This document shows, piece by piece, positions 9,898-37,195 of a stretch of DNA of 47,525 nucleotides. The notes beneath the pieces were generated by a model. That model was not told the origin of the DNA, did no database searches, and saw only the letters and a program-made list of their open reading frames with translations. Positions within the stretch are counted from its first letter, which is position 1. Each line of letters starts with the position of its first letter. The position numbers and the translations under genes were made by a program. Origin of the DNA: a virus. The DNA is taken from positions 1 through 47,525 of the IMG/VR virus record IMGVR_UViG_3300044991_001171; one strand, given 5' to 3'.

Positions 9898-12468
9898 TTA
9901 ATTAATTTGAAAATCATCAAATTGAGTTCCGCCACTGCCTGTTCCTGGCGGTGTTTTTATTATTCCAAAAGCGCTCTGGCCTACAAGCGAAGATTTTGTT
10001 GGGTTTGATGCGGTATAAGATTTTGTAGTTATTGTTGAACTTCTTGCCGTATTAGAATATAATGTTGTAGATATATTATTACCTGAAGTGGATACAGAAA
10101 TTCCACCAATTGTTGATGGAGATTCTTCATTTGAAAAAATATTTTCTGTATTAACTGTAGAAACACTAGAACCATCCGCTTTTAATGTATCAAGTCTTGT
10201 ATTATAAACAGTTACACTAGATGAGCTATTTGAACAATTTGTTGGTAGCGATCCTCCATATTGTGTATTTGGTCCAACAGTACATCCATAAACTGAAGCA
10301 TCATATTCTGTTGTAGAAGCAGAACTGTCATAGACTGTTGTATTTACGTATGCATCATATACAATAGTTGAACCTGGATAATCGTATACGGTTGTATTTG
10401 TAGAAACAGAACTGTCATAAACGGTTGTATTTACGTATGCATCATATATAATAGTTGAACTTGTAGAGTCGTATATAGTTGTATTTACAGTTGCATCATA
10501 TACAAGAAATCCATTTACGAATCTTGTTTTGCAGTTATTTCCAGCACTTCCTAGACCGTTATTTGGGCAACTACTTGAAGTTCTTGTTTTGCAATTGCTT
10601 CCAGCACTTCCCGATCCATTGTCTGGGCAGGAGCTTGTAGTTCTTGATTTACAGTTACTAAATAAGTTTCCTGATCCATTATTTGGGCAAGTACTTGAGG
10701 TTCTTGACTTACAGTTGCTTCCAGCACTTCCCGATCCATTGTCTGGGCAAGAAGTAGAACTCACAGTTCTTGACTTACAGTTGCTTCCAGCACTTCCCGA
10801 TCCATTGTCTGGGCAAGTACCTACAGTTCTTTGTTTACAATAGCTCAATAAATTTCCTGAGCTATTGTCTGGGCAAGTACTTACAGTTCTTGTTTTGCAA
10901 TTGCTTCCAGCACTTCCAGAGCTGTTATCTGGGCAACTGGTAACAATTCTTGTTTTACAGTTAGTTCCTAAGCTTCCTGTATTGTTATCTGGGCAAGTAG
11001 GAATAGTTGCAGTTGTATAATATACATATTTAGTTACAGCAGATGAAGTTTTATTAACTCTTGAAGCCCACCAAGACCCAGCATCTGTTGACCAAAATGT
11101 TAGTCCAAGGCCTTCCGAGCCAGAAGGAAAACTAGCAGAAACAACTGCATCGGTAGTTCCATCTAAAATAACTGATTGTTGCGGATATGTAGTTGGAGTT
11201 GATCCCGAAACAGTACTTGTAATAGATGCTACAGAACCGTTAACGCTCCAAAGAGAACCGTTAGAGCTAAGGCTATATATATAGGAATTTGGACTCATAG
11301 CAGAATTAATAATTGGAGTCATTGTACCTAATCCCCCAGATACCGTTCTTGTATAATTATCTATTACTTGACCAATTTTTGCATCAATTGATGAACTGTA
11401 GTAGTAGTAAAATGTTGTTCCATCAAGTGCAAGAACTTCGTCAATATAGTAAAAATAATATTTTGGGGCAGTAGCATCATTTTGATTTACATTATATGGA
11501 GAAGAACCTGCATTAGATATAGATGAACTGGTTAATCCACTTGTTAGTGGGGTAGAAAAAATTGTTCTTCCAATGTATGAAGTTTTAGATTGAAATGTTC
11601 CAGATTGATAAGTACCAGATGTTCCAGTTATTGCTGCAAATGCGTACCCAGTTCCACTAATAGATGGGGAAGTTAATTGAGTTGGAACAGGTGAGGCATT
11701 TGTAGTAATTGTTAAAGTATTTGAATCATTACCTTGATAGCCTCTATATGTAGCATTTATACCAGTAATTGGAATTACTTTAAAATCATAAGATGTGCTG
11801 GATAAAAGACTAGATATTGTTGCTGTAGTTCCAGATTCTACTGAAGAAAATGAAAAAGTGGCATCTGAAGATAATTTGTAATAAACTAAATAATTAGCAG
11901 CATTTGCCGCGGCGGTAGAAGTCCAATTAATACTAACTGAGTTATATGTGTGGCTTGTTTCTACAATTGTTATATTTTCTGGCCCATATATAGTTGTATT
12001 GCCAGAAGTTGATGATGCGGAGGTGGAATAAGTTGAATTAGTAGCAGTTACAACATACCTATATATATTAGTAGCATTTGGAGATACGTCAGTTAAATTA
12101 TTTTGTAATAAATATGTATTTGTATTACTTGATCCAGAAGATGGATTAGTTGCGGATCCAGATGCTATTTGTGTCCAATTTGTTCCGCTATCTGTACTTT
12201 TATCAAATCTATATGTCATTCCAGTTGAATTAATCCAATAATAGTTTGTTCCAGTTAATGTTTTAGCATATGTTATTCCATCAGTAGATTGTGATATTGT
12301 TACCGTATTTTGAATTGATGGGGTTAAAGAAGAAGAAAATATTAATTTCCAAGATCCCGAAACTTTTAAATATGCAGAAGAAAGATTTTTCCAGACATCA
12401 GAATTTTTTAAATATACAGATGCTACATTTCTCCAGTCCCCATCACTCCCCTTTAGTTTTATTGTCAT
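9898..12468 (-). CDS. Tail adhesin/minor tail protein with FN3 domain and cysteine repeats
   Basis: 856 aa. The N-terminal 50 residues repeat a WRNVASVYLKNSDVWKNLSS-type motif (three W/Y-rich copies) that probably docks to the tail. A fibronectin-III-like domain follows (ENITIVETSHTYNSVSINWT to TLTITTN). Residues 492-649 are eight about 20-residue repeats of the form CP(D/N)N-x8-(N/Y)CKxR, and residues 652-727 are a Tyr-Asp repeat block (VYDA/TTVYDSS). The C-terminus is Ser/Thr/Gly-rich. It is probably a host-recognition protein at the tail tip. The paired cysteines are unusual for a cytoplasmically assembled virion protein. Followed after about 60 nt by the next promoter-gene unit. Confidence 0.8.
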   Translation of the reverse strand: MTIKLKGSDGDWRNVASVYLKNSDVWKNLSSAYLKVSGSWKLIFSSSLTPSIQNTVTISQSTDGITYAKTLTGTNYYWINSTGMTYRFDKSTDSGTNWTQIASGSATNPSSGSSNTNTYLLQNNLTDVSPNATNIYRYVVTATNSTYSTSASSTSGNTTIYGPENITIVETSHTYNSVSINWTSTAAANAANYLVYYKLSSDATFSFSSVESGTTATISSLLSSTSYDFKVIPITGINATYRGYQGNDSNTLTITTNASPVPTQLTSPSISGTGYAFAAITGTSGTYQSGTFQSKTSYIGRTIFSTPLTSGLTSSSISNAGSSPYNVNQNDATAPKYYFYYIDEVLALDGTTFYYYYSSSIDAKIGQVIDNYTRTVSGGLGTMTPIINSAMSPNSYIYSLSSNGSLWSVNGSVASITSTVSGSTPTTYPQQSVILDGTTDAVVSASFPSGSEGLGLTFWSTDAGSWWASRVNKTSSAVTKYVYYTTATIPTCPDNNTGSLGTNCKTRIVTSCPDNSSGSAGSNCKTRTVSTCPDNSSGNLLSYCKQRTVGTCPDNGSGSAGSNCKSRTVSSTSCPDNGSGSAGSNCKSRTSSTCPNNGSGNLFSNCKSRTTSSCPDNGSGSAGSNCKTRTSSSCPNNGLGSAGNNCKTRFVNGFLVYDATVNTTIYDSTSSTIIYDAYVNTTVYDSSVSTNTTVYDYPGSTIVYDAYVNTTVYDSSASTTEYDASVYGCTVGPNTQYGGSLPTNCSNSSSSVTVYNTRLDTLKADGSSVSTVNTENIFSNEESPSTIGGISVSTSGNNISTTLYSNTARSSTITTKSYTASNPTKSSLVGQSAFGIIKTPPGTGSGGTQFDDFQIN
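10288..10513 (-). repeat. Tyr-Asp repeat block within the tail adhesin
   Basis: Irregular direct repeats of about 30-36 nt encode alternating VYDA-YVNTT and VYDSS-type units, with at least seven YD pairs. Two long near-identical stretches (YDAYVNTTVYDSS) lie about 100 nt apart. The period differs from Rhs YD repeats (YDxxGRL), which are absent. Confidence 0.75.
10519..10995 (-). repeat. Eight tandem about 60-bp repeats encoding paired-cysteine units
   Basis: Each unit encodes C-P-(D/N)-N, a Ser/Gly-rich loop and (N/Y)-C-K-x-R. The GGGCA (Cys-Pro) and TTACA/TTGCA (Cys-Lys) words recur at about 60-nt spacing on the plus strand. Copies 4, 5 and 7 are nearly identical, which points to recent expansion or homogenisation. 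Confidence 0.9.
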
Positions 12469-29923: not shown

Positions 29924-30265
29924 TTATTTACCGTAGTACTTTGCCACTTCTTGAGGTGTCGCTGTGCGAACCTTGTTGTGGGTAAGCCACTTTTCGGAAA
30001 CCTCCTTGGTTACAATGTTATAGCCTTTTATGATTTCTCCAACACCATTCCAGAAAATATTACGTTCTGAAAAGAGTGCTACTTTTTCATTAATTAGCTT
30101 TTCTGCTTTTGGGTTTACTGTTGACTCTTGTTTTGGAGTCCAACTAGAAATTACTTCAAGCATGTGAACTTTTGTTGTTACCCCAAACAAATCAATGTTA
30201 TTTTTCTTTGCATAAGACTTTATTTCCATAACAGTCTTTTTAGATAAATCTTCAATAATAGACAT
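29924..30265 (-). CDS. Small head protein with Rho-N/SAP-like N-terminus
   Basis: 113 aa. Residues 9-42 (KTVMEIKSYAKKNNIDLFGV and onward) form a helix-extended loop-helix pattern like Rho N-terminal or SAP/HeH domains, which bind nucleic acid or proteins. The rest is KVALFSERNIFWNGVGEIIK, then VSEKWLTHNKVRTATPQEVA. Similar small proteins with HeH starts are encoded next to capsid genes in many phages. It has its own extended -10 element (30282-30290) and an AGGAGG ribosome site. Confidence 0.62.
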   Translation of the reverse strand: MSIIEDLSKKTVMEIKSYAKKNNIDLFGVTTKVHMLEVISSWTPKQESTVNPKAEKLINEKVALFSERNIFWNGVGEIIKGYNIVTKEVSEKWLTHNKVRTATPQEVAKYYGK

Positions 30266-30293: not shown

Positions 30294-30530
30294 TTAGCGT
30301 CGTCTTCCTCTACCAAAATTATTTTGCATTGGTAAACGAATTCCATTTGGTGTTCCCGATGGATTTACAGCATTAGGTCCCGATGTTTCTCCAAGAGTTG
30401 CTCCTGAAGCTCCAAGTGTATTAACTTGTAGACCACTAGATCCCATAATAATAACACCTGGATTTCCTAATGTAACAATTGCTCCTTCGCCATTGTGACT
30501 ATGATCAATTGGTTCACCTGGATAAGACAT
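30294..30530 (-). CDS. Free-standing paralogue of the capsid N-terminal arm (78 aa)
   Basis: This 78-aa protein is clearly related to the first about 75 residues of the major capsid protein encoded directly upstream. YPGEPIDHSHNGEGAIV (3-19) matches YPGTTTSHGHDGSGAVA (9-25) of the capsid, and NAVNPSGTPNGIRLPMQ (53-69) matches NAVNPVGTPGGILLPEQ (57-73). It then ends in a basic tail, FGRGRRR, instead of the HK97 fold. It is Gly-rich with no enzyme motif. A role as a minor capsid, cement or assembly-control protein is inferred. The ribosome site is GGGAGAA; a hairpin lies between it and the capsid gene. Confidence 0.8.
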   Translation of the reverse strand: MSYPGEPIDHSHNGEGAIVTLGNPGVIIMGSSGLQVNTLGASGATLGETSGPNAVNPSGTPNGIRLPMQNNFGRGRRR

Positions 30531-30555
30531 TTTATTCTCCCTATAAATGACTGAA

Positions 30556-30579
30556 GGGAACGGCTTTTACACCGTTCCC
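30556..30579 (-). terminator. Strong hairpin between capsid gene and arm paralogue
   Basis: A perfect 8-bp stem GGGAACGG/CCGTTCCC with an 8-nt loop lies 21 nt after the capsid stop. The following bases on the minus strand (TTCAGTCATTTATAG) are only weakly T-rich. It may act as a leaky terminator or as an mRNA 3'-end stabiliser that lets abundant capsid transcripts partly read into the next gene. Confidence 0.5.
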
Positions 30580-30599
30580 CAAGTCAATCGTTTTAGCGA

Positions 30600-31712
30600 T
30601 TATGAGTTATTTGCTGCTGTTGCGTATGCAACTGCGTCAAGTTCTTCCCATTGTAGACCAAAGCGGACGAATACTGTGTATTCAATTGTGTCCTTCTTTG
30701 GTTGGTAGAAACGGTTTACAGTGATATCACGTTGGAATCCCCATACACGGTTCTGTGGGAATGTAAGATCTACATATCCTGCAGGGTAGTAAGGAACTTC
30801 TTGGACTTCAACACCGAGAACACGAGTTGTACGTGCTCCACCAAATGTCTGAGCATTGCCATCAAGGTATGCTTGACGGTTTGCAGGTGTACCTGCTGGC
30901 TTACCAGCAAATGCTTCTGCGATTGCATCAGCCAATGTACCATTATTTTTAATGATACCCTGGAATGCGTCTGTACCAGCATAGAACTTAAGATTGTTCT
31001 TGATTGCACGATACTTACGTGGCATTGCGAGGATAATGTTTTGCATAACCTCTGTTGTCCATGCGTTGTCAGCAACAGTTACCATTGACTCGTGTGAGTC
31101 TCCGCCCTGTACTTTTTCAACAAAGCCTTCCATGATTGAAAGGAATGATCCTGTTGCACCGTCACCGTTGATCGCAAGATCTTCAATGTCGTTTGCAAAA
31201 GCATTTGTCATCAAACGTACGAGATGGTCTTCAAGAGCGCCGCCTTCTACGTTATCTTCTAGTGCTTCTGTTGATACTTCCCAGTCAAGACGAATCTTCT
31301 TTGTAGTCAATTCAACCTTTGAGAAAGTTGCGCCTGCATTTGTAAATGTAGGGTCTGCTTGTGCTGCTGCACGAATTACACGCTCACCAACGTTAACTTT
31401 TTCAAGTTCCATTGTATTTGCTCGCATTGTAACTCTACGTCCATCTTTAGCGAGAACTGTAGCATCCCACACATAATCAATGAAGCGACGTGCTTGTTCA
31501 GGCAATAGGATTCCACCTGGTGTGCCGACAGGGTTAACTGCGTTTGCACCTGATGTTCCGTAATTTGCTCCAGCAATATTTCCTAGAATGCCTTCACGAC
31601 CACTTACGATGGTTGCGGGAGCACCGTCTGAACCTGATGCTACTGCACCTGATCCATCATGACCATGACTAGTTGTAGTTCCTGGATAGTTTTTTACGAT
31701 ATCTTCTGACAT
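30600..31712 (-). CDS. Major capsid protein (HK97 fold)
   Basis: 370 aa from the ATG at 31710-31712, which sits 8 nt after AGGAGG (a GTG three codons earlier is less well placed). The N-terminal about 75 residues are a Gly-rich arm. The HK97-type core includes FIDYVWDATVLAKDGRRVTM, the E-loop region, KVELTTKKIRLDWEVSTEAL, EDLAINGDGATGSFLSIMEG, and a C-terminal P-domain/A-domain end with FQRDITVNRFYQPKKDTIEY and VFVRFGLQWEEL. It lies directly after the scaffold/protease gene. Its initiation region is nearly identical to that of the nested scaffold start. Confidence 0.93.
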   Translation of the reverse strand: MSEDIVKNYPGTTTSHGHDGSGAVASGSDGAPATIVSGREGILGNIAGANYGTSGANAVNPVGTPGGILLPEQARRFIDYVWDATVLAKDGRRVTMRANTMELEKVNVGERVIRAAAQADPTFTNAGATFSKVELTTKKIRLDWEVSTEALEDNVEGGALEDHLVRLMTNAFANDIEDLAINGDGATGSFLSIMEGFVEKVQGGDSHESMVTVADNAWTTEVMQNIILAMPRKYRAIKNNLKFYAGTDAFQGIIKNNGTLADAIAEAFAGKPAGTPANRQAYLDGNAQTFGGARTTRVLGVEVQEVPYYPAGYVDLTFPQNRVWGFQRDITVNRFYQPKKDTIEYTVFVRFGLQWEELDAVAYATAANNS

Positions 31713-31740
31713 ATTGTTCACCTCCTAGTGATTTTTTATG

Positions 31741-32286
31741 TTAGTTATATAGGTCGGAGAATTTGAGGAAACGTCCGCCCCATAGGGATTTTTGAATTGG
31801 ACTTTCATCCATTTCCTGCACGATCTCGCCAAGATCGCCAGACTTGCGGAAAGCGGTGTCCTTTTCTACGGAATCAACTCTCTTTCCAATTTCGTTAAAA
31901 GTACCCTTGATCTGATTTACATCAGTTGTTGTGGCATCAAGAGACTTCTTTATATTAGCAACTTCATCACTAAGTGACTTAAGTGTTGCTGTTAGATCGC
32001 CAAAGGCATTAGTAACAGATTCCTTGATGTCTGTAATTGCATCAGCAATTACTTGATCAGCCTTTGCAGCATCTTCTGCTGCTGGTGCTTCTGGATTCTG
32101 AATTGCATCTTCTACTGAAGATGTAGCACTATCTTCCACAATTGAATCAGACTTTTCTGCTTCAGCAACTGGTGCTTCTGCTTCTAGAACTTTTTCTACT
32201 GCTTCTGTTGGTTGTGCCTCTGGAGTGACCTCTACTGATACTGCTTCTGCAACTGGTGCATCCACTGTTAGTGTATCTTCTGACAT
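31741..32286 (-). CDS. Nested scaffold protein (internal start in the protease gene)
   Basis: An in-frame ATG (32284-32286; residue 254 of the protease) is preceded by AAGGAGGT seven nt upstream, the best ribosome site in the area. It would give a 181-aa product starting MSEDTLTVDAPVAEAV, covering the acidic and coiled-coil scaffold half. This is the same logic as lambda C/Nu3, where the scaffold is made from an internal start in the protease gene. The initiation region matches that of the capsid gene at 24 of 27 positions. The internal start is inferred from sequence and not shown experimentally. Confidence 0.72.
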   Translation of the reverse strand: MSEDTLTVDAPVAEAVSVEVTPEAQPTEAVEKVLEAEAPVAEAEKSDSIVEDSATSSVEDAIQNPEAPAAEDAAKADQVIADAITDIKESVTNAFGDLTATLKSLSDEVANIKKSLDATTTDVNQIKGTFNEIGKRVDSVEKDTAFRKSGDLGEIVQEMDESPIQKSLWGGRFLKFSDLYN

Positions 32287-33045
32287 AGGGTTTACCTCCT
32301 TTGTAATCTTAGATGTATTAATGCCTTTAGCACTATCAACTAAGAACTTTATCATGTTTGCTTTATCTGAGTCATTTTTTTCTACAAAACCAATGTTTTT
32401 CATTTCGTTACCGTTTACTGGGCTAACGTATGTCTCTTCATCAGAAGTTAGAACAATGCCTGTTTCTTCATCATAAAAAACATTTTCTACAACTACATCG
32501 GCAAACTCACCTTTAATAACATCTACACCGTCAACTTTTTCAACTGACATAATACTTGCAAATTGATTTGCTGGTGAATCTACTAAAGATAGTTCTACTA
32601 GATCATAGTCTTTAATAATTCTAATTGCTTTATCAAGTTCTTCATTATATGCATCATCCCACTTATTCATTCGTCCCCCGATTGAAAAACCAGTGTATGT
32701 TCCATCAAGAACTTTTTCCCATGCGTCCTGTGCACCTTTGGAAATGTATGTAGAAACATAAACTCCCTTATAAAATTTCTTTGTTTCTGGATCAAAATAT
32801 TTTTCTTCTTTAAAGTTAAGCATTTTTCCAACTGCTGAGGGCTGATGCATTTCACGTATGTTTCCACGGAATTTTGCAAAAGCACTCATAGATGCTTCTG
32901 TTGTAACAATGTCATATTGTTTATCAACATTGTCAAGAGATGCAAAACCAGAGACAATTCTTTTCTCAATGTCTACTTTTCCAAAGGGCATTGAAAGGCG
33001 AAGGCTGTCGCCGTCAGTGGTCCAAAAAGCTTTATTTATGTCCAT
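31741..33045 (-). CDS. Prohead protease fused to scaffold region
   Basis: 434 aa from the ATG at 33043-33045; the ATG 12 nt further up overlaps the -10 box. Residues 1-170 are an S78-type HK97 prohead protease: IVSGFASLDNVDKQYDIVTT, a His in REMHQPSAVG (His67), the Ser in GFSIGGRM (Ser121) and DLVELSLVDSPAN. From about residue 250 the protein becomes acidic, Ala/Glu-rich and then coiled-coil (DAITDIKESVTNAFGDLTAT, VANIKKSLDATTTDVNQIKG), typical of scaffold. It would assemble the procapsid and cleave the scaffold. A second, strong start inside the gene encodes the scaffold alone. Confidence 0.88.
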   Translation of the reverse strand: MDINKAFWTTDGDSLRLSMPFGKVDIEKRIVSGFASLDNVDKQYDIVTTEASMSAFAKFRGNIREMHQPSAVGKMLNFKEEKYFDPETKKFYKGVYVSTYISKGAQDAWEKVLDGTYTGFSIGGRMNKWDDAYNEELDKAIRIIKDYDLVELSLVDSPANQFASIMSVEKVDGVDVIKGEFADVVVENVFYDEETGIVLTSDEETYVSPVNGNEMKNIGFVEKNDSDKANMIKFLVDSAKGINTSKITKEVNPMSEDTLTVDAPVAEAVSVEVTPEAQPTEAVEKVLEAEAPVAEAEKSDSIVEDSATSSVEDAIQNPEAPAAEDAAKADQVIADAITDIKESVTNAFGDLTATLKSLSDEVANIKKSLDATTTDVNQIKGTFNEIGKRVDSVEKDTAFRKSGDLGEIVQEMDESPIQKSLWGGRFLKFSDLYN

Positions 33046-33055
33046 ATCGTATTCC

Positions 33056-33064
33056 ATTATACCA
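33056..33064 (-). promoter_or_regulatory. Extended -10 element TGGTATAAT (protease/scaffold/capsid)
   Basis: TGGTATAAT on the minus strand ends 10 nt before the protease ATG at 33045, leaving a leader of only about 2-4 nt and no room for a ribosome site. The longer reading-frame start would overlap the box itself. It would drive the protease, scaffold and capsid genes. Confidence 0.6.
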
Positions 33065-35161: not shown

Positions 35162-37195
35162 TTAGTACAACTTGATTTCACAAGCATCTGTAGAACAATA
35201 TTTCTCAGACTCAGCATCAAGGTTATCTTTACCATCATAAATAGCAGACCAGTCAATTTTGCCAATTGTTCCTACATATGCATTATATTGTTCTCTTGTA
35301 ATCTCCGTATATGGTTGCTGTGGATAGGTTTTATTCCCCATTGGAAGGAATGAAACAGCCTTTAGCTGGCCCTCATACATATTAAGGGCTGGAGCAATAA
35401 ATTTTGTTTCTTCTTCTTTGTCAAATGAAAGTGTCACAGAGACACCATTATCTGACCAGTACTTCTGAGCAGTTGCTGCCAAACCAATTTTCTCAAACAA
35501 ACTAACCTGCTTTTCTGCACGTTTGTGTCCAGATGCAACTGGGAAATATACTACCTGTGTATTTGCTGATACAAGGTCTGGTTCAACTTTATACCCCGCT
35601 GCTTTGAATAGGTGAAGCATTGGATCTTGGTCTCCAAAGCGAATAGCTCTAAGATAGAACTCTCCACCAGGACCCCAGTGAACTCCAGGGGTAGCACCAG
35701 AGAGAAGTGAAACAGATCCTGATGGCTTAACTGTAGTTACACGAACTGACTCACGAACACACAACCATTCTGAATATGAATGATCATATTTACGGATTGT
35801 ATTATATCCTTCATCCATCCATTCACGAATAACAGGAAGACCATATTCATCAGCAAAAGAAGCAATGCCTGTAAGAGATGTGCCAATACGACGATTGCGT
35901 TGCATAATACCATTTGTCTGTTGCCAATGTGTAGGCATTAAAGTTACAGTTTTTCCATAAAGATAAGCAAACTTTAATGTCTTTAAAAAGTCTTCTTTAG
36001 ATTCATGGCGATTAAGATGAACTTCAACCAATGTACATAGTTCATAACTTTCTAGTGGCTGTTCAGCACAAGGATTAAAACCCATGATTCTAGAATCTTT
36101 ATAGTCTGGTGCATCTGCAAGACGACCATAACTACGTGCAACATCTAACCAAATAAAACCTGGTTCTCCATTATCTGCAATTAAATCTACATAGTCTTCA
36201 TACTTTGTTCCAACTTCAGCAGCAATAGAGTTATTACTCATCCATGCCCACCCTGGTTTCTTTGGATCATATGAATTTCTTTCTGCAAATACCTCGGGAT
36301 TTTTAAGATTAATAAAATCTTGATCTTCTGGTGTACCAAGTGCAAGGGTAGCAGAACGACGAACATTTCCAGAAACAACACATGTACCAATAAGATTTAC
36401 AATATCTACAATAGCACGGCTATCAAAGGCATCCCCTGCTCTAGAACCGATTACATTACGAATACGTGTATGGAGATCAATAAGTGGTGCTGGACCGCTT
36501 GCTACCCCGCCAAAGCCCTTAATAGGGGCACCTAGAGGACGAATGAGGTCATAGGTAAACTCTTGAATAGACTGGTTTGCACGAAGGAATGAATTAATAA
36601 GTAATCTAACAGACTCAACCCATCCTTCACGAGTATCTGGGATTTCATAAATAGATGCTGGCTCTGTTGGAGCATAGATAGACATTTGCTTGTCTTGACC
36701 AAGGGTATCAAACCCTACACCAATACCTAACATTAATGCATCCATTACCCAAGCAAAAAGAGCACCTGGATCATTACGATCAATGTCACGAGTAGAGACC
36801 ATTGCACAATTTTGAAGGGATGCTGAGTTACGCTTCTCCATAGTCATAGGAGTTCCAAATGCCCAGAGACCACGGCCTGGAGGAGTCCACTTTAATTCAA
36901 ACATTCTTTGAAAGGCTTCTTGGGCAGACTTCTGTGCCTTGTTATCATTCCAAGGTAGGCGATTATCTTTAGCATGGTTTTTTTGAACTGAATACATACC
37001 CTCAATTACACGACGACATACTTCATGCCAGCGTTCTTTTGTCCCGTCTTCTTTAACACGAGAATATGTACGAATAAATGTTACCTCTCCCAGAGAGTTA
37101 GATCCTGCATCTGAGAATCCAAATGGCGCTGGGATGGTTTGATATTTATTTACAAATTCTTCTGATAGACGAAAAGAGAATACGCTTTCTGACAT
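35162..37195 (-). CDS. nrdJ: Adenosylcobalamin-dependent ribonucleoside-triphosphate reductase (class II)
   Basis: 677 aa, slightly shorter than Lactobacillus leichmannii RTPR (739 aa). Key residues are visible: Cys130 in SLQNCAMVS (equivalent to C119), NPCAEQPLESYELC with the thiyl-radical Cys376, Glu378 and the paired Cys387 (equivalents of C408, E410, C419), and a C-terminal shuttle pair C667-x4-C672. It makes deoxynucleotides from NTPs without a second subunit or oxygen and depends on host B12. It stands alone between the fibre and head modules with its own promoter, a GAAAGG ribosome site and a terminator upstream. It may be an acquired cargo gene that raises dNTP supply. Confidence 0.93.
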   Translation of the reverse strand: MSESVFSFRLSEEFVNKYQTIPAPFGFSDAGSNSLGEVTFIRTYSRVKEDGTKERWHEVCRRVIEGMYSVQKNHAKDNRLPWNDNKAQKSAQEAFQRMFELKWTPPGRGLWAFGTPMTMEKRNSASLQNCAMVSTRDIDRNDPGALFAWVMDALMLGIGVGFDTLGQDKQMSIYAPTEPASIYEIPDTREGWVESVRLLINSFLRANQSIQEFTYDLIRPLGAPIKGFGGVASGPAPLIDLHTRIRNVIGSRAGDAFDSRAIVDIVNLIGTCVVSGNVRRSATLALGTPEDQDFINLKNPEVFAERNSYDPKKPGWAWMSNNSIAAEVGTKYEDYVDLIADNGEPGFIWLDVARSYGRLADAPDYKDSRIMGFNPCAEQPLESYELCTLVEVHLNRHESKEDFLKTLKFAYLYGKTVTLMPTHWQQTNGIMQRNRRIGTSLTGIASFADEYGLPVIREWMDEGYNTIRKYDHSYSEWLCVRESVRVTTVKPSGSVSLLSGATPGVHWGPGGEFYLRAIRFGDQDPMLHLFKAAGYKVEPDLVSANTQVVYFPVASGHKRAEKQVSLFEKIGLAATAQKYWSDNGVSVTLSFDKEEETKFIAPALNMYEGQLKAVSFLPMGNKTYPQQPYTEITREQYNAYVGTIGKIDWSAIYDGKDNLDAESEKYCSTDACEIKLY

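Follow-up and report, generated by a model that had tools for sequence, protein, structure and literature searches.

A free-standing homologue of the capsid N-terminal arm that matches its own capsid in uncultured, probably actinobacterial, viruses

The 78-aa gene directly downstream of the major capsid protein (MCP) gene in the viral DNA studied here is, judged by its sequence, a truncated MCP paralogue that makes the N-terminal arm as a protein of its own. What is new is that this free arm, in its N-terminal motif, resembles its own capsid's arm more closely than it does the arms of other capsids. Capsid arms lock subunits together, and all the capsid arms known to us are attached to a subunit. 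A conserved arm-only gene, matched to its own capsid in many lineages, amounts to a natural experiment on arm contacts, on any action of arms in trans, and on the regulation or sealing of the shell lattice. A gene common in uncultured actinophages, yet present in none of the family libraries searched, can thereby be annotated.

The window (the whole stretch of DNA analysed, 47,525 bases) is a virus record from IMG/VR. Its head module lies on the minus strand in the order portal, protease-scaffold, MCP, 78-aa gene, 113-aa gene and connectors. The portal (34775-33087) was assigned by gene order, and the gene after it (31741..33057) encodes a head maturation protease (PHROG 9427, E 4.5e-111; Pfam Peptidase_S78_2) fused to a visibly acidic, coiled-coil-like scaffold region. 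The MCP (30600..31712) was identified by its matches to PHROG 1623 (E 4e-72) and PHROG 10, major head protein (E 1e-6). Its likely start is the ATG at 31712, giving 370 aa, because the upstream GTG, from which the ORF would span 30600-31721 (373 aa), is part of a perfect Shine-Dalgarno (SD) sequence, AGGAGGTGA. Residues 1-75 (31488..31712), the probable source of the duplicate, form the N-terminal arm, and the core begins at RFIDYVW. In the same direction, the free-arm gene runs from an ATG and occupies 30294..30530, TAA included. Its product comprises an N-terminal motif, YPG..HSHNGEGA (residues 3-17), a middle segment containing GVIIMGSSGLQ (residues 21-48), the arm end SGPNAVNPSGTPNGIRLPMQ (residues 50-69) and a basic tail, NNFGRGRRR (residues 70-78). 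The next gene (29924..30265, minus strand) codes for 113 aa with an N-terminus that is SAP-like by eye.

The 69-nt spacer between the MCP and the small gene (30531..30599) contains the SD-like sequence AGGGAG, located 6 nt upstream of the small gene's ATG and weaker than the SD of the MCP. It also contains a strong hairpin (GGGGAACGG..CCGTTCCC, MFE -28.6) at 30556-30581, just 3' of the MCP stop and with no U-run. This hairpin is also kept behind the MCP in relatives without a free arm, so it is not part of the free-arm gene; it may be an element for mRNA processing or 3'-end formation that separates the MCP from the downstream genes. Elsewhere on the minus strand of the window, a 677-aa protein just upstream of the portal-side genes (35162-37195) resembles by eye a class II ribonucleotide reductase, and an 856-aa protein of the tail region (9898-12468) carries, at about 10500-10900, about eight Cys-containing repeats, nearly identical to one another, of the type CPDNGSGSAGSNCKTR.

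The sequence-only reading of this DNA had described the small gene as repeating the capsid N-terminus in order, and our comparisons bear this out. The 78-aa protein is collinear and homologous from end to end with MCP residues 9-73, and a tblastn search of its own record returned no match besides itself and the N-terminus of the MCP (E 4.1e-12, 52% across residues 2-69). Local alignment of the small protein with the arm scored 141, whereas the best of 20,000 composition-preserving shuffles reached 76. Taken separately, the N half scored 79 (shuffle maximum, 65) and the C half 79 (maximum, 47), values reached by 0 of the 20,000 shuffles in each case. At the profile level, hhalign between the free-arm and capsid-arm families gave a probability of 99.6 and an E of 1.3e-23. 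The shuffles and the profile comparison rule out low-complexity or Gly matching, the doubt for which the same reading had proposed a pairwise alignment. Homology ends with ...GIRLPMQ69 in the small protein and ...GILLPEQ73 in the MCP, just before ARRFIDYVW, the first helix of the MCP core, in agreement with the claim that the gene stops where the capsid enters its core. With 78 aa, a homology that is over before that helix and no Pfam or PHROG match, the protein has no HK97 shell domain. Its proposed derivation from the capsid gene is supported by the end-to-end homology and by the shared ancestral segment discussed below. At the other end, the MCP has an extra stretch, MSEDIVKN, of which the small protein has MS only. 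The Arg-rich tail (FGRGRRR) had also been pointed out; it is indeed present as a basic tail, with 3.7 R/K among the final 10 residues across the family vs 1.2 in all the remaining ones, and needs the correction that it is without a counterpart in the capsid.

Among IMG/VR viral contigs we detected the free-arm gene at 185 loci, some of which overlap on the same contig, so that contigs are fewer than loci. These encode 98 distinct proteins. Far from varying freely without ever resembling the arm, which the sequence-only reading had named as the case against itself, all of them are arm-like and track the arm of their own capsid. Most are 70-92 aa long, with one truncated ORF of 47 aa in locus L265, and the gene is found once per locus, 63-78 nt behind the MCP where both ORFs are intact. 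In another 70 loci, a gene of the 113-aa type directly follows the MCP; the small gene is therefore an insertion into a conserved gene order. Relatives' contigs of 91, 106 and 114 kb carry the capsid's own arm only and no free-arm gene, and we found no third arm-like protein in the 91-114 kb contigs of relatives. Searching the INPHARED phages with the free arms of two clades and the capsid arm gave no match, a profile search of genome contigs with the free-arm profile gave no relative, and a PDB sequence search with the free-arm and MCP profiles returned nothing useful. The carriers are uncultured, mostly freshwater viruses. Actinobacteria are probably the hosts, since WhiB, a key indicator of actinophages (PMC10202952), was present in all seven of the large related contigs tested.

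Some loci show unusual arrangements. In L019 (416-1585) the MCP reading frame continues in frame from the protease-scaffold end (..GGRFLKFSDVKNYPGTT..), as would follow from a deletion of the intergenic stretch and capsid start; this is either a natural polyprotein or an assembly chimera. In L265 (670-1859) the 3' end of the MCP runs on after ..YKPK, in a different frame, into the latter half of the free-arm gene, by a deletion or a chimera uniting the two adjoining genes. L033/L109 (3497-5699) contain two tandem MCP copies, the second without an intact arm; given that the repeated cores are identical, we treated this second MCP as a probable assembly artefact and not as a real copy.

The free arm appears to be translated and maintained by purifying selection, on sequence-level evidence: SD-like sequences stand ahead of nearly all its copies, the frames are intact in the 98 distinct copies, and dN/dS is 0.14 for the free arm vs 0.27 for the capsid arm (pN/pS between close carriers, from overlapping pairs and given without error). 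Regarding codon adaptation to the MCP core, the free arm has a CAI of 0.47, vs 0.61 for the MCP arm, 0.45-0.51 for low-copy neighbours and 0.45 for the next gene. This codon usage, unlike that of the MCP, and the weaker SD give a weak hint of modest expression.

In a tree of 163 distinct arms and free arms, all the free arms form one clade (SH-aLRT 97), so the free arm most likely arose once. Its presence on the MCP core tree requires 11 changes, at least 5 of them on well-supported branches, and we conclude that the gene has been lost or exchanged repeatedly; a carrier (L170) and a non-carrier (L169) are near neighbours. As for the direction, a duplication of the MCP 5' end into the gap between the MCP and the next gene seems likelier, because the free-arm end GIRLPxQ has a counterpart, GGLLNxEQ, in the armless capsids of Streptomyces phages and because the most basal armed capsids, on a weakly supported root, lack the free-arm gene. 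We also noted that the motif G[NY][LV]xP in the middle segment of the capsid arm occurs in 33 of 50 distinct arms from non-carriers (L074 and L077, for instance) and in 5 of 57 from carriers, while the free arms keep a GPxG-type motif. This contrast, resting on four tree changes only, is suggestive of split functions. We do not claim a move of the GPxGNLSP middle segment from capsid arm to free arm in carriers, given those few changes and the lack of support from independent pairs, and an association between small-gene presence and HxH in the capsid arm found no support either.

The N-terminal motif (residues 3-20) is of the YPG..HxH..GxGA type in two clades and of the PLNGEG type in a third, following the own capsid in each. 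Over these residues, mean identity to the arm of the own capsid was 0.52-0.54, vs 0.40-0.43 to the arms of other lineages. The own arm exceeded the mean of the others in 11/11, 17/17 and 31/31 lineages under three thinning schemes and in 18/19 under a fourth. Permutation of partners gave p 0.0002 in every scheme, values that are too small given that the lineages are related; within the three clades, the own pair was better than all 2000 permutations. We observed no consistent own-partner excess in the middle segment, and a weak one in the C-terminal half, the most conserved part. HxH is found in both or neither protein of the pair in 62/62 distinct pairs; this concordance corresponds to one event on the tree and was rejected as strong evidence by itself. 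Gene conversion is not supported as the source of the matching: at shared residues within positions 3-20, synonymous-codon identity was 0.516 in own pairs vs 0.54 in others. Because synonymous codons are no more alike in own pairs, the matching points to selection at the protein level. The duplication is older than the clades, so independent drift does not predict it; a shared binding partner or direct contact between the arms would. A third partner, outside the capsid and shared by both arms, might also explain why the two change together.

From this matching we infer that the free arm uses the contacts of the capsid arm in head assembly or in the virion. Our explanation, for which we find belief and doubt evenly balanced, is that a single-origin paralogue of the arm docks at the capsid arm's partner and aids assembly or sealing. 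The free arm would dock through its N-terminal motif (YPG...HxH..GxGA) onto that partner, presumably a neighbouring capsid subunit or an arm bundle at the threefold axis, and once docked it would be an arm without a subunit. Its basic tail may reach the acidic scaffold or packaged DNA, and the whole would steer or seal a portion of the shell as it assembles or expands. A more specific version, a soluble, sequence-matched copy of the lattice-locking arm occupying arm sites that have no subunit (at the portal vertex, lattice defects or threefold bundles), is tentative and leans to the doubtful side. AlphaFold2 models (pLDDT 52 for the free arm; 31 for the MCP, with a shallow alignment) were too weak for a fold search or a docking model. 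The sequence-only reading had suggested that the free arm could fill capsomer holes, cap the arm-binding sites or limit assembly. Many relatives whose capsids belong to the same family do without the gene, so any role must be dispensable at that level, and its absence from those among them with 91-114 kb contigs speaks against filling holes or setting size as an essential role. An assembly aid or minor component is more likely than a cement at every capsid subunit. If true, the arm without a subunit would represent a head factor of a new class, made from a piece of the capsid protein.

One could argue that the free arm is instead a transient competitor, absent from the mature virion, which would occupy the arm-binding sites of the procapsid and slow or time closure, or set curvature or size, much like CpmB. 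The binding-type sequence in common with the arm, the selection to match it, and the codon usage and SD weaker than those of the MCP would all suit such a factor. A CpmB-like competitor would be expected to carry the lattice-binding motif of another head protein and to compete for its site; the free arm has a motif in common with the capsid arm and co-varying with it, which might serve in this way, and CpmB itself may be a precedent (PMC5644958). Nevertheless, the contigs of carriers (95-112 kb) overlap those of non-carriers (91-114 kb), all of which may be fragments, and so give no sign of a different capsid size; we consider this reading somewhat unlikely.

Quite unlikely, in our opinion, is a surface or cement protein, in which both arms would lie outside the mature head in mixed clusters, perhaps metal-bound through HxH, and stabilise the shell or bind a host surface. 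The HxH motif is common to both arms and lost together, the arms of T4 shift to the outer surface on expansion (PMC9958956), and in decoration proteins an arm frequently becomes ordered upon binding and not before (PMC7602432), analogies that may apply here. However, one whole clade that keeps the gene lacks HxH, the codon usage is not MCP-like, and the free arm gave no match to described decoration or cement families in PHROGs, Pfam or PDB sequences. Very unlikely is a decoy or signal, by which a free copy of the motif would saturate or recruit a factor outside the shell, such as the maturation protease, a tail or portal factor or a host defence sensor. Amino-acid matching without DNA homogenisation would fit any common third partner and the protease gene lies two genes upstream, but we recognised no known sensor and, apart from the capsid and the free arm, found no protein of the genomes that carries the motif. 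Finally, a non-functional relic of capsid gene duplication, or the reverse history, in which an armless capsid acquired its arm by fusion with a free arm gene, is scarcely credible: the armless capsids of the Streptomyces relatives do make the arm itself an addition and the gene is repeatedly absent, but the low dN/dS, the intact frames and the SD contradict a relic, while the counterpart of GIRLPxQ in those capsids and the basal armed capsids without the gene contradict a fusion.

By comparing these results with known systems, we find partial likenesses to several of them. Among named phages, the MCPs are 43-44% identical at best, and they match from residue 69 of the 373-aa ORF, with no arm. 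These belong to Stanwilliamsviridae (the Streptomyces phages Jay2Jay and BillNye), which share the MCP family and the order portal, protease, MCP and a gene resembling the window's 113-aa gene, but whose capsid lacks the 60-residue arm and which have no free-arm gene. T4 gp24 is also a second capsid-derived protein that arose by gene duplication and specialised for part of the shell, in a head whose arms move and make inter-subunit contacts (PMC9958956); gp24, however, is full length with an HK97 fold, whereas the window gene kept the arm only and no fold remains. The Ccm of SaPIbov5, which redirects phi12 assembly, is likewise a capsid homologue acting on the shell, and the long N-arms of phi12 contact the P-domain of the neighbour and form triskelia at the threefold axes (PMC8569155). 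Ccm is nonetheless the full-length pentamer-former of a satellite, while the free arm is an arm-only protein encoded by the phage itself. The size factor CpmB of SaPI1 is a small protein with a capsid-binding motif common to another head protein, the scaffold, through which it competes for a site (PMC5644958); that motif is thus not the capsid arm's, and CpmB is a helical dimer and no capsid paralogue. The small capsid accessory protein gp4 of the actinophages Patience and Adjutor is similarly tiny (54 aa in Adjutor) and, in Patience, forms a random coil on its own but becomes ordered within the capsid, where it touches the E-loop and N-arm region (PMC10635136), but it adopts a helical fold there and has no reported resemblance to a capsid arm. 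The pLDDT of 52 for the free arm would agree with disorder of the isolated protein, without being proof of it. We found no arm-only capsid paralogue in the open-access literature searched, and a paywalled description is possible. The free arm would belong with the known capsid-derived accessory proteins; its sequences indicate a real gene, conserved, occurring widely in these phages and matched to its own capsid.
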